Assembly: GCA_005879585.1 (NCBI GenBank)
Contig: VBKG01000304.1
Location: forward strand, 1 to 41,772
Length of the DNA: 41,772 nucleotides
Direction: 5' to 3'
DNA from: Deltaproteobacteria bacterium
GTDB lineage: Bacteria > Desulfobacterota > Binatia > DP-6
Positions 34,973 to 41,001 of the stretch are shown here, one piece after another. The position numbers and the translations under genes were made by a program. Every line of letters starts with the position of its first letter. Within the stretch, counting starts at the first letter, position 1. The notes below the pieces were generated by a model. It ran no database searches. It was not told the origin of the DNA and saw only the letters and a program-made list of their open reading frames with translations.

Positions 34973-35305
34973 GTGCCCCTGGCGACTGCATCGAAGATCC
35001 GCGCGCTGCGCCGTGACTTCAAAACGGGGGCGGCGATCGCCGATCTGCTCGGGGTGAATCGCTCACAGGTCACGCGCTGGCTGCGCGGGGCCGGCATCGA
35101 CCCGCTCAACGCCGAGCGGATCGACCTGCTCGAGCTCGTGTGGGCCAGCCTCCTGCGGCAGTACGAGCCGGCGGCCGCGCGCGCCTGGCTCTTCGGGTTG
35201 AATCCGCATCTTGGCGACCGCAGGCCGATCGATCTCGTCCGTGCCGGCCGCGCCGAGGAGCTGCTGCGAGCGATCCGCGCGGAGCGGGCCGAGTCCTTCG
35301 CCTGA
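34973..35305 (+). CDS. Xre/MbcA/ParS-type antitoxin
   Basis: A 110-residue antitoxin. The N-terminal half holds a helix-turn-helix (GAAIADLLGVNRSQVTRWLR). The C-terminal half is the MbcA/ParS toxin-binding domain (WLFGLNPHLGDRRPIDLVRA, then EELLRAI). It should bind the RES toxin and the inverted repeat at 34934-34967. GTG 34973 is the start. Confidence 0.85.
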   Translation: MPLATASKIRALRRDFKTGAAIADLLGVNRSQVTRWLRGAGIDPLNAERIDLLELVWASLLRQYEPAAARAWLFGLNPHLGDRRPIDLVRAGRAEELLRAIRAERAESFA

Positions 35306-35850
35306 CGCTGCACCGCTGCTTCGCCTGGGACCGCCGTGTGGGCGCGCGGGCCGAGGGCGGCGCGCTCTGGTTCCCGCGCCGCTACCAGGGCGATGGACGA
35401 CACGACAACCCCGACGTCTACGGGTGCCTCTACGTCGCGACGGAGCCGGTGGCGGCGATCGTCGAGCAGCTGGCGCGCTTTCGCGGGAGCGTGATGGTAC
35501 CGCAGATCCTGCGGCGGCGCGGCTTGCCCCTGGCGCTCGCCACGGTCGAGCTCGATGACCGGACCAACCTGGCGGACCTCGACGACCCTCGCCTGCTCGC
35601 CACCCGCCGGCTGCGGCCGTCGCGTATCGCCACCCGGGAGCGCGGTGTGACGCAGCCGCAGGCCCTCGCTTTCTATCGCCGCCGGGCGAACGGGCTGCGT
35701 TGGTGGTCGACCTTCGAGTCGCTGTGGACGAACGTCACGCTCTTCGACCGGGTGGCACCACGCCTGCGCCTCGCCGGCGTAACGGCGTTGACCGCCGAGG
35801 GGGCAACGCTGCGCGAGGCGGCGGAACTCCTCGGCATCGCTCCCGCCTGA
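35302..35850 (+). CDS. RES-domain toxin (NAD+ phosphorylase family)
   Basis: About 182 residues of RES domain: LHRCF at the start, GALWFPRRYQGDGRHDNPDV and YGCLYVATEPVAAIVEQLAR, the ATRRLRPSRIATRERGVTQP region and WWSTFESLW near the end. RES toxins degrade NAD+. No ATG, GTG or TTG exists in frame near the domain start. The best start is CTG 35302, which overlaps the antitoxin stop as CTGA, copying the ATGA layout. A GTG at 35338 would remove the conserved first strand. Weak coupled initiation would keep toxin below antitoxin. Confidence 0.8.
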   Translation: MTLHRCFAWDRRVGARAEGGALWFPRRYQGDGRHDNPDVYGCLYVATEPVAAIVEQLARFRGSVMVPQILRRRGLPLALATVELDDRTNLADLDDPRLLATRRLRPSRIATRERGVTQPQALAFYRRRANGLRWWSTFESLWTNVTLFDRVAPRLRLAGVTALTAEGATLREAAELLGIAPA

Positions 35851-37018: not shown

Positions 37019-38308
37019 ATGACGACCCCGAGGAGCACCAGCAAAATGGTCACGACAGAGATGACGGCGATACGGCGATTCAGTCATCTTGGCGCTTCCT
37101 TCGCGGCGCTGGCGATCGTTCTGGGTCCGGCGCTCGCCGCGGAGGCCGGAAGCGCGTTCAAGTTCCACGGGCGCTTCGCCAACCGCGACGGCACGCCGGC
37201 CGCGGGTGAGCTGCACGCGCGGATGGCGCAGAGCAGCTCGTGGATGATCGTGCACGCCAAGAGACTCGGTGGCTCGCAGACCCTGTCCATCGTCCTCCGC
37301 GGCACGGGCACGGACGACGCGTCCGTCGCCAGCTTCACGACCGATACGCGCGGGCGCGCGAACCTGCGCTTCATGACCGTCCCGCGGAGGACGACGGACC
37401 TTCGTCTCGGCTTCGATCCACGCGGGAAGCACATCGTGATCATCGGCAGCGGCGCCGATCGGCTCGATGTCTCCGTGCCCGGCGCCGACGATCCACCGCC
37501 GAGCGGCAACCCGCCGCCCGATGACAATCCTCCCCCGTCCTGCACCGCGGTCGACACGGGAGATCGTTCGCTGGAGATCGAAGAGGGCACCGGAGCCGTC
37601 AGCGCGCACTTCCACCGCGACAGCGCCTGCCACCGCGGGCTCGAGCTCCACGCCGCCGGCATGGCACGCGGCGTCTACGAGCTCTGCGTCGGCGGCACCT
37701 CCTTCGGCACCTTCGAGATCGACGACGACGCCACGGAGATGGAAAACGAGATGGAGCTCGAGGACGAGCCAACTGACGTGAACCAGCGGCCCTACGGGGA
37801 CGACCTGCCGGACCCGCTCGACTCTCGCCTCGAGGTTCGCGACGCGACCGCGACGCCGTGCTCCGGCACGCTCCGGTTCTCGTACGCTTCCTTCCCCGAC
37901 GACGCCGGACAGCCAGAACCGCTACCTCCGCCGCCGCCACCGCCACCGGCCAGCTGTTCGGCCGTCGACACGACGGACGTGAGTCTCGTCGCCGAGACCG
38001 GCAGCGGGAAGGCGAAGGCTCGCTTCCGCCGCGATGCGCAGTGCCACCGCGACTTCCGCGTGGAGGTCGAGGACGTCACGACAGGATCGTACGAGCTCTG
38101 CGTCGGCGGCATGAGCTTCGGCAGCTTCGACGTCGTGAACGACGGCGTCGAGGTTCAGGGCGAGATCGAGCTCGAGGACCAGATGGAGGACGTCGGCGCC
38201 CGCCCCTACCCGACGACGCTGCCCGACGCGCTCGGAGAGCGGATCGAGGTGCGGCGTGCGGGTTCCACGGCGTGCTCAGGGACCCTGATGTTCTCGCTGG
38301 ACTTCTGA
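37019..38308 (+). CDS. Secreted protein with two copies of an unrecognised four-Cys domain
   Basis: A 429-residue exported protein; no family recognised. A signal peptide ends near AAEA (residue 43). Residues ~45-155 form a beta-rich domain. Two copies of one ~110-residue domain follow (175-293 and 313-429), joined by proline-rich linkers, one an uninterrupted run of eight prolines. Each copy starts C-x-AVDT and has cysteines with identical spacing: C175, C204, C223, C281 and C313, C342, C361, C419. Shared wording includes YELCVGG-x-SFG and CSGTL. Likely disulphide-bonded outside the cytoplasm. GAGGAG lies 6 bases before ATG 37019. The next gene carries a third copy. Confidence 0.8.
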   Translation: MTTPRSTSKMVTTEMTAIRRFSHLGASFAALAIVLGPALAAEAGSAFKFHGRFANRDGTPAAGELHARMAQSSSWMIVHAKRLGGSQTLSIVLRGTGTDDASVASFTTDTRGRANLRFMTVPRRTTDLRLGFDPRGKHIVIIGSGADRLDVSVPGADDPPPSGNPPPDDNPPPSCTAVDTGDRSLEIEEGTGAVSAHFHRDSACHRGLELHAAGMARGVYELCVGGTSFGTFEIDDDATEMENEMELEDEPTDVNQRPYGDDLPDPLDSRLEVRDATATPCSGTLRFSYASFPDDAGQPEPLPPPPPPPPASCSAVDTTDVSLVAETGSGKAKARFRRDAQCHRDFRVEVEDVTTGSYELCVGGMSFGSFDVVNDGVEVQGEIELEDQMEDVGARPYPTTLPDALGERIEVRRAGSTACSGTLMFSLDF

Positions 38309-38416
38309 GCAAGCTCGGTCGCCCGACACACACACACACTAGTGACTCGCCCGGGGAAGGTTAATCGACGTGCGTTTCGCACGCCGCCCACCGGGCCGAA
38401 AAGGGAGGAACAGCAG

Positions 38417-38911
38417 ATGGAAGTCGGTCATGGATGGAAGCACCTCGGGGCGCTCGCGCTGATTGCGGCGATTGGCGCGGCGGCACCCGGCACCGCGGGG
38501 GCGCAGTGCCTCTCGGTGGACACAGGCGACGTCTATCTCGTGGCCGAGGGCGGCGGCGCCTGCAAGGCGCGGTTCAGGCGACGGGACGACTGCCGCCGCG
38601 ACCTCCGCGTCGAGGAGGACAACGTCGAGCTCCACTACTACGACCTCTGCGTCGACGGGGTGTTCTTCGGCTCCTTCCAGGCCGTCAAGGTCGCGGGCGG
38701 GACCCACGGCGAGGTCGAGTTCGACGACGTGCCCGATAAGCCGGGCGAGCGCCAGTATGCGGCGGGGTGGCCGGAGGCGCTGGGCGCGCAGATCGAGGTC
38801 CGGGACTCGGCCAAGGTAGCGGTGAAGAACCGGAAGACCGCGACCACGACGGCACCCCCGTGCACCGGAGCGCTCCGCTTCTCGTACACCTCGTTCCCGT
38901 ACGAGCCGTAG
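38417..38911 (+). CDS. Secreted protein with one copy of the same four-Cys domain
   Basis: A 164-residue exported protein. Signal peptide 1-29 (cleavage near TAGA-Q), then one copy of the domain found twice in the preceding gene: CLSVDTGDVYLVAEGG, ARFRRRDDCRRDLRVE, YDLCVDGVFFGSF, IEVRD and CTGALRFSYTSFP. Cys positions are C31, C59, C78 and C149; the last gap has a ~13-residue insertion, and C49 is extra. ATG 38417 is chosen over upstream starts because GGGAGG lies 8-9 bases before it. The 108-bp gap from the previous gene has an (AC)n tract and a CGTGCG-TTT-CGCACG hairpin (38369-38383). It may be co-expressed with its neighbour. Function unknown. Confidence 0.8.
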   Translation: MEVGHGWKHLGALALIAAIGAAAPGTAGAQCLSVDTGDVYLVAEGGGACKARFRRRDDCRRDLRVEEDNVELHYYDLCVDGVFFGSFQAVKVAGGTHGEVEFDDVPDKPGERQYAAGWPEALGAQIEVRDSAKVAVKNRKTATTTAPPCTGALRFSYTSFPYEP

Positions 38912-40327: not shown

Positions 40328-40618
40328 ATGCGCGCGGTGGGGCTCAAGACGCTCAAGAACAAGCTGAGCGAGTACGTCCGGCTCGCCGCCGGAGGCGAGA
40401 CGGTCCTCGTAACCGACCGGGATCGCGTCGTCGCCGAGCTGGTGCCACCGCGCTCCGGTCGCGCGGCGCTTCTCGCCGATGCGCAGCTCGCAGACGCCGT
40501 TCGAAAAGGCTGGCTCACGCCGCCCGCCCTGCCCGGCACCGATGCCCCGCCGCGCCGGCCCGTCGCTCGGCTCGAGATGCTACTCAGTGAGCTTGCCACC
40601 GATCGAGCCGAACGGTGA
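40328..40618 (+). CDS. Phd/YefM-family antitoxin
   Basis: A 96-residue antitoxin. The N-terminal Phd/YefM DNA-binding fold reads AVGLKTLKNKLSEYVRLAAG followed by ETVLVTDRDRVVAELVP. The C-terminal tail, with ARLEMLLSELATDRAER, is the likely toxin-neutralising segment. The gene starts just after an inverted repeat and overlaps the toxin start as GTGA. Confidence 0.88.
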   Translation: MRAVGLKTLKNKLSEYVRLAAGGETVLVTDRDRVVAELVPPRSGRAALLADAQLADAVRKGWLTPPALPGTDAPPRRPVARLEMLLSELATDRAER

Positions 40619-41001
40619 TCTACCTCGATACGTCCGTGGCGCTGGCGCAGCTCCTGGCGGAGGACCGCACGCCGCCGGCGTCACTTTGGAGGGAGCCGCT
40701 CGTCTCGAGTCGGCTCCTCGAGTACGAGCTGTGGACCCGCGTGCACGCGCGTGGGCTCGGTCGGTCGCATGGCGAGGATGTCCGTCAGCTCCTCGGCCGG
40801 ATCGCGCTGCTCGAGCTGACGACTCCGGTGCTCGCACGGGCTCTCGAGCCGTTCCCGGCCCCTGTCCGGCCACTGGACGCGCTGCACCTCGCCTCGGTCG
40901 ACTTCCTCCGCCAGCAGGGACAGAACGTGCGCCTCGCGACGTACGACGCGCGCATGATCGAAGTGGCGCGGCGCCTCGGCATCCCAGCCTACGCGATATG
41001 A
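40615..41001 (+). CDS. VapC-like PIN-domain ribonuclease toxin
   Basis: A 128-residue PIN-domain toxin. The acidic metal site is complete: D5 (IYLDTS), E38 (EYELWTR), D88 (PLDALHLA) and D111 (ATYDARM). VapC toxins cut tRNA or rRNA. GTG 40615 overlaps the antitoxin stop, so translation is coupled. The pairing of a PIN toxin with a Phd-type antitoxin is common. Confidence 0.9.
   Translation: MIYLDTSVALAQLLAEDRTPPASLWREPLVSSRLLEYELWTRVHARGLGRSHGEDVRQLLGRIALLELTTPVLARALEPFPAPVRPLDALHLASVDFLRQQGQNVRLATYDARMIEVARRLGIPAYAI

Follow-up and report, generated by a model that had tools for sequence, protein, structure and literature searches.

Copies of a predicted superoxide dismutase-type barrel without metal loops in two adjoining, putatively secreted proteins of a deltaproteobacterium

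Few proteins with the fold of Cu,Zn superoxide dismutase (SOD) are without metal and catalysis, and they comprise domain II of CCS, dominin, CHRD and the arthropod CSRP. The CHRD domain (PF07452), which is present in chordin and in many bacterial proteins, is an extracellular SOD-like barrel that has no catalytic activity and lacks loops 4-5 and 7-8. In chordin, where the domain is repeated, the CHRD region consists of four SOD-like barrels lacking the metal loops and binds glycosaminoglycans, and heparin and heparan sulfate are ligands of the human CHRDs (PMC13382577). The CSRP proteins of animals are secreted tandem arrays of SOD barrels in which the copper sites are partly lost, so that some repeats have none (PMC13017621); they retain the intramolecular disulphide of SOD, many of their repeats also keep the copper site, and their linkers are very short. 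Here, we compare these systems with a bacterial repeat domain encoded by two adjoining genes of a deltaproteobacterium. The bacterial family was not described in the literature searched (most subscription journals lay outside the scope of the search).

The two genes, P0001 and P0002, are arranged head to tail on the plus strand of the window, by which we mean the whole 41,772-nt stretch of DNA analyzed. P0001 (positions 37019-38308; an open reading frame of 429 aa) encodes a putatively secreted protein with one cysteine-free and two four-cysteine SOD-like barrels. Its first ATG is preceded by gaggag, two further ATGs, at 37046 and 37061, are possible alternative starts, and the N-terminus is a hydrophobic, signal-like stretch ending in ALAAEA. 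The cysteine-free domain copy (37148-37489, aa 44-157), recognized by an HMM match of 25.4 bits and by its AlphaFold2 (AF2) fold, is followed by a proline-rich linker (37490-37537, DPPPSGNPPPDDNPPP), four-cysteine copy 1 (37538-37900, cysteine codons at 37541, 37628, 37685 and 37859), a second proline-rich linker (37901-37951, GQPEPLPPPPPPPPA) and four-cysteine copy 2 (37952-38305, cysteine codons at 37955, 38042, 38099 and 38273). The open reading frame of P0002 (38342-38911) opens at a GTG at position 38342; however, since gggagga is located ahead of the ATG at 38417, the latter is the likelier start, and the resulting single-domain, putatively secreted protein (38417-38911) begins with the signal-like MEVGHGWKHLGALALIAAIGAAAPGTAGA. 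It carries four-cysteine copy 3 (38504-38902, cysteine codons at 38507, 38591, 38648 and 38861), with an extra cysteine codon at 38561 and a 13-residue insertion ahead of the fourth cysteine (C4). Judged by eye, both proteins have hydrophobic N-termini resembling signal peptides (ALAIVLGPALAAEA in P0001 and GALALIAAIGAAAPGTAGA in P0002), whereas no C-terminal anchor is visible in either, and both are probably exported out of the cytoplasm.

An earlier note on this DNA, made from the sequence alone, had described an unrecognized secreted four-cysteine domain in three copies across two genes. The three four-cysteine copies in adjoining genes, the secreted character (by the signal-peptide-like N-termini) and the proline-rich linkers of P0001 were all borne out by our analysis, as were the conserved motifs, every one of which was found in the copies. 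The spacing of 29, 19 and 58 is identical in the two P0001 copies, the 8 cysteines being located at residues 175, 204, 223 and 281 and at residues 313, 342, 361 and 419. P0002 keeps the pattern (Cys56, Cys84, Cys103 and Cys174) with inexact spacing (28, 19 and 71) and carries an additional Cys74. The count of three holds for the four-cysteine copies, but the total is four, the cysteine-free copy at the N-terminus of P0001 having been missed. Pairwise identity among the four-cysteine copies is 44-52%. By sequence comparison, the similarity among the copies is far beyond chance, because an HMM trained without any of the four-cysteine sequences of the window and of G001, a second genome of the same genus, still detected copy 1 (24.7 bits), copy 2 (57.9 bits) and P0002 (53.1 bits). 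Because the same HMM also found the N-terminal copy, P0001 consists of three domains, the first of which is cysteine-free.

No named family could be assigned to these domains. Pfam and NCBIfam scans of P0001, P0002 and 15 relatives, as well as searches of PDB sequences with single sequences and profiles, yielded chance matches only, and the plasmid and phage collections contained no relative. Thus, as the earlier note had supposed, the domain has no curated match in Pfam, NCBIfam or PDB sequences, and no profile match to a known family was found. Among the matches discarded were those of copy 2 to GroEL (NCBIfam and PDB sequences; E about 0.001-0.1), which span about 30 residues and were judged to be due to chance, and weak matches to a Pfam plant cysteine-rich domain and to laterosporulin, far under the cut-off. 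Searches of PDB sequences with broad profiles retrieved designed beta-trefoils and other chance matches only.

The domain is not, however, confined to its four-cysteine form. A search of the same genome and its relatives retrieved proteins with the same domain that have no cysteines or only the first two (C1 and C2), and profile comparison of the four-cysteine with the 0/2-cysteine domains (hhalign) gave a probability of 99.5% and an E-value of 1e-22. On this sequence evidence, all four copies in the window are members of a wider unnamed, presumably secreted repeat domain with 0, 2 or 4 cysteines, and what had been noted as an unrecognized domain is, although indeed unnamed, the four-cysteine branch of this wider group. 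The signature of the wider domain is YxLxVGG...GExEF...LxFDPRG. The LxFDPRG loop, located between strands 6 and 7 of the predicted fold, is kept as GFDPRGK in the N-terminal cysteine-free copy of P0001 but is absent from the four-cysteine copies, which have a longer loop instead (RPYPTTLPDALGERIEV). Because the loop is absent, we filed the four-cysteine copies as a divergent branch and not as typical members: homology to the FDPRG-type domain is clear, whereas the loop is missing and the second cysteine pair (C3 and C4) has been added. In a tree, the five four-cysteine domains form a single branch with support of 100/100, and among the 148 genomes of the class this form is present only in the window genome and in G001.

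The wide family was found in 22 of the 148 genomes of the class. Its members, most of which are cysteine-free or carry C1-C2 only, occur in deltaproteobacterial MAGs, in Lysobacterales (Dokdonella and Chiayiivirga), in Wenzhouxiangella and Marinicella, and also in Planctomycetota, Verrucomicrobia and Acidobacteria, mostly as proteins with 2-5 domain copies each. A scan of genome contigs with a nine-row alignment detected 37 loci; the corresponding scan with the four-cysteine alignment produced no match. Some relatives have more complex architectures. Four large proteins (L072, L074, L075 and L108; open frames of 772-1786 aa) contain one or a few domain copies among other regions, and in L004 (G000:C358) and L025 (G009:C30) a cysteine-free domain precedes several copies of a different, cysteine-rich repeat, CCVPDD..CE.RT..EC...GG.......C...PC, after which come threonine-rich or other regions. 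The gammaproteobacterial relatives L089, L093, L099 and L101 open with a different domain (FTGAWFEPATNGQGIQLQV..FWFTFDANGNQIWALG), for which a Pfam scan of L089 gave no match, and some of them terminate in glycine/aspartate-rich repeats (GGDDDGPGDDN).

The fold was recognizable, the prediction being a barrel of the Cu,Zn-SOD type that lacks the metal loops. AF2 modeled four-cysteine copy 2 (69 sequences; pLDDT 93.3, pTM 0.85) and the N-terminal cysteine-free copy (pLDDT 95.4, pTM 0.86) with eight strands each. SODs dominated the Foldseek search against the PDB, with a loop-deleted SOD1 as the top match (E 3.5e-3, probability 1.00), and among the matches listed by VIA-align for both copies there were only SODs or SOD-family proteins. 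The best match of copy 2 was 4bd4, a human SOD1 from which loops IV and VII were deleted (Z 10.7; 99 residues aligned at an rmsd of 2.5 A), and the cysteine-free copy matched 6flh and 4bd4 (Z 11.6 and 11.5, respectively; rmsd 2.6 A over 100 residues for the SOD1 at Z 11.6). A search of viral structures returned weak matches only, inactive poxvirus SOD-like proteins among them. Thus, the domains share with Cu,Zn SOD (Sod_Cu, PF00080) the predicted eight-stranded Greek-key barrel (rmsd 2.2-2.6 A over 95-100 residues) but are only 14-15% identical to it in sequence, occur as tandem repeats, have their disulphides elsewhere and lack the metal loops, the HxH motif and a Pfam Sod_Cu match, none being found even at E 10. 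Profile comparison with 30 SodC sequences of the same class agreed with this fold and gave a score of 26.4 and a probability of 28% over 32 columns covering strands 2-4, compared with a maximum of 17.9 for 200 column-shuffled profiles and a score of 13.8 for the reversed profile; since this sequence link is weak, shared descent with SOD is not proven.

The register of the SodC alignment sets YELCVGG on HGFHVHE of SodC. The histidine pair of strand 4 that provides copper ligands (HxH) is accordingly replaced in the four-cysteine copies by cysteine and glycine (or aspartate), as in C-V-G, and across the family the His46-like position is mostly V, F, R or L and the His48-like position G or D. In the model, all that remains of loop IV is a turn of two residues (between strands 4 and 5, residues 45-51 and 54-63), and the short loop VII leaves nine residues to join strands 7 and 8. 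The loss of both metal loops and of the metal-binding histidines suggests that the barrel lacks catalysis and serves as a non-enzymatic scaffold. Active or metal-binding dismutases, copper-only or degenerate as in fungal SOD5 or the animal CSRPs, that detoxify extracellular superoxide would have the same predicted fold, and animals provide a precedent in tandem SOD repeats whose copper sites are partly lost (PMC13017621), but the vestigial loops and the replaced histidines, together with a separate Sod_Cu gene in the same genome (122.6 bits), make such an activity highly improbable.

The predicted fold also agrees with the published description of CHRD as a SOD-like barrel without metal loops (PMC13382577); no CHRD structure was among the matches listed. 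CHRD is present in the same genome and class, and the window domains could in principle be divergent members of that family. We consider this unlikely, however, because a sequence relation was undetectable: comparison by hhalign with 25 CHRD domains from the class gave a score of 18.4 and a probability of 3%, and the Pfam scans contained no CHRD match. By the tests made, the window domains are outside both Sod_Cu and CHRD.

The distribution of cysteines among the relatives bears on the pairing of C1 with C2 and of C3 with C4 that the earlier note had guessed. Of 127 distinct domains, 22 carry both C1 and C2 and none carries C1 by itself; the only cases of C2 without C1 are two matches truncated at the N-terminus. 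Each of the five four-cysteine domains has C3 as well as C4. This co-occurrence supports the guess, and the disulphides C1-C2 and C3-C4 probably form. The model places C1 ahead of strand 1, C2 at the turn that joins strands 2 and 3, C3 within strand 4, and C4 in the connection from strand 7 to strand 8. In the hhalign register, C3 takes the copper-ligand place of SOD1 His46. An exact equivalence of C4 with SOD1 Cys146 was dropped, because the end-points of the alignment of structures put C4 about 7 residues earlier. The best reading is that C1-C2 is ancestral and C3-C4 lineage-specific. A differing set of four cysteines (C1, a cysteine after strand 1, C2 and a C-terminal cysteine) was observed in the single-domain secreted relatives L059 (G000:C440) and L060 (G001:C123) and is conserved between the two genomes; because C1 and C2 are kept there with a different second pair, a second disulphide was apparently added independently.

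G001 has an ortholog of P0001 in the same neighborhood with 8 of 8 cysteines kept, and in G002, the third genome of the genus, an ortholog at the same place matches residues 15-109, its four-cysteine part being unjudgeable because the contig ends inside the gene. There is no counterpart of P0002 in G001, where the corresponding place (L122:5890-6800) contains an unrelated open reading frame with a signal-like start (MKPHSQTELRRVALLLALATILVSPLPASS). Between the window and G001, dN/dS (NG86) was 0.85 (CI 0.49-1.30) for copy 1 and 0.61 (CI 0.40-0.87) for copy 2, as opposed to 0.16 for the neighboring NamZ and 0.19 for the neighboring cytochrome c at similar dS (0.49-0.60); because NG86 ignores codon bias and the genome is GC-rich, only the contrast is usable and not the absolute dN/dS. 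Two further family members gave 0.33-0.39. The four-cysteine form thus evolves fast, with all cysteines nonetheless retained.

This rate contrast, the restriction of the four-cysteine form to the genus and the lack of P0002 in G001 would also be expected if the proteins were small secreted effectors or antibacterial factors, rich in disulphides, that act on competitors or partners and are under diversifying selection. Such a function is very unlikely, given that dN/dS is not confidently above 1, that no immunity gene or secretion cassette adjoins the genes (the immediate neighbors are a cytochrome c, a RES/Xre pair and a convergent NamZ) and that in environmental bacteria the family occurs as a secreted, multi-copy repeat domain. 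Relaxed constraint on dispensable surface decorations, of which only the folded core and the disulphides are kept, would likewise account for a high dN/dS with every cysteine retained and for the missing P0002. Yet the reading frames are intact, whole-protein dN/dS of P0001 is below 1 (CI 0.48-0.80) and P0001 is kept at the same place in the window genome, G001 and G002 (in the last of these it is cut off by the contig end), so that we regard relaxed constraint as doubtful.

Taken with the predicted fold, these observations make it likely that the domains are non-catalytic, extracytoplasmic SOD-fold scaffolds carried on proline-rich linkers, held by two disulphides and most likely engaged in binding a partner. 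A Greek-key barrel of the Cu,Zn-SOD type would have lost its metal-binding histidines together with loops IV and VII and would be displayed outside the cytoplasm, three times on the proline-rich linkers of P0001 and once in P0002. Two disulphides would harden it: C1-C2, common to the two-cysteine relatives, would join the N-terminal tail to the strand 2/3 turn, and C3-C4, specific to this branch, would join strand 4, where SOD has a copper-ligand histidine, to the short strand 7-8 connection. The partner would most likely be a protein or a polysaccharide of the envelope or matrix. Both the ligand and the binding or structural role are proposed from the architecture and by analogy, the window domains likely working like the CHRD region and other SOD-derived repeats. 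A broader reading, which we put forward as tentative and somewhat less probable than not, is that a large unnamed bacterial family of secreted tandem repeats was built on an enzyme-less SOD barrel as a counterpart of CHRD and CSRP, and that this genus placed a disulphide at the copper site (C3 at SOD1 His46) of a fast-evolving surface binder. If correct, the assignment would provide a fold, and hence a testable role, for a multi-phylum secreted repeat domain missing from Pfam and NCBIfam, and would make a bacterial addition to the few SOD-fold proteins devoid of metal and catalysis. The 0/2/4-cysteine series would then represent a natural experiment in disulphide gain by an envelope barrel.

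Apart from these two genes, the contig contains ordinary chromosomal genes, including aroA, hisC, pheA, miaA, mutL and pgi (identified by eye). A functional link of the domains to the neighboring NamZ was rejected, because G004 has a NamZ (87% identity) without an adjoining four-cysteine gene. Two putative toxin-antitoxin pairs were also observed in the window: an Xre/MbcA/ParS-like antitoxin with a RES-domain toxin at 34973-35850, which is kept in G001 and G002, and a Phd/YefM antitoxin with a PIN toxin at 40328-41001.
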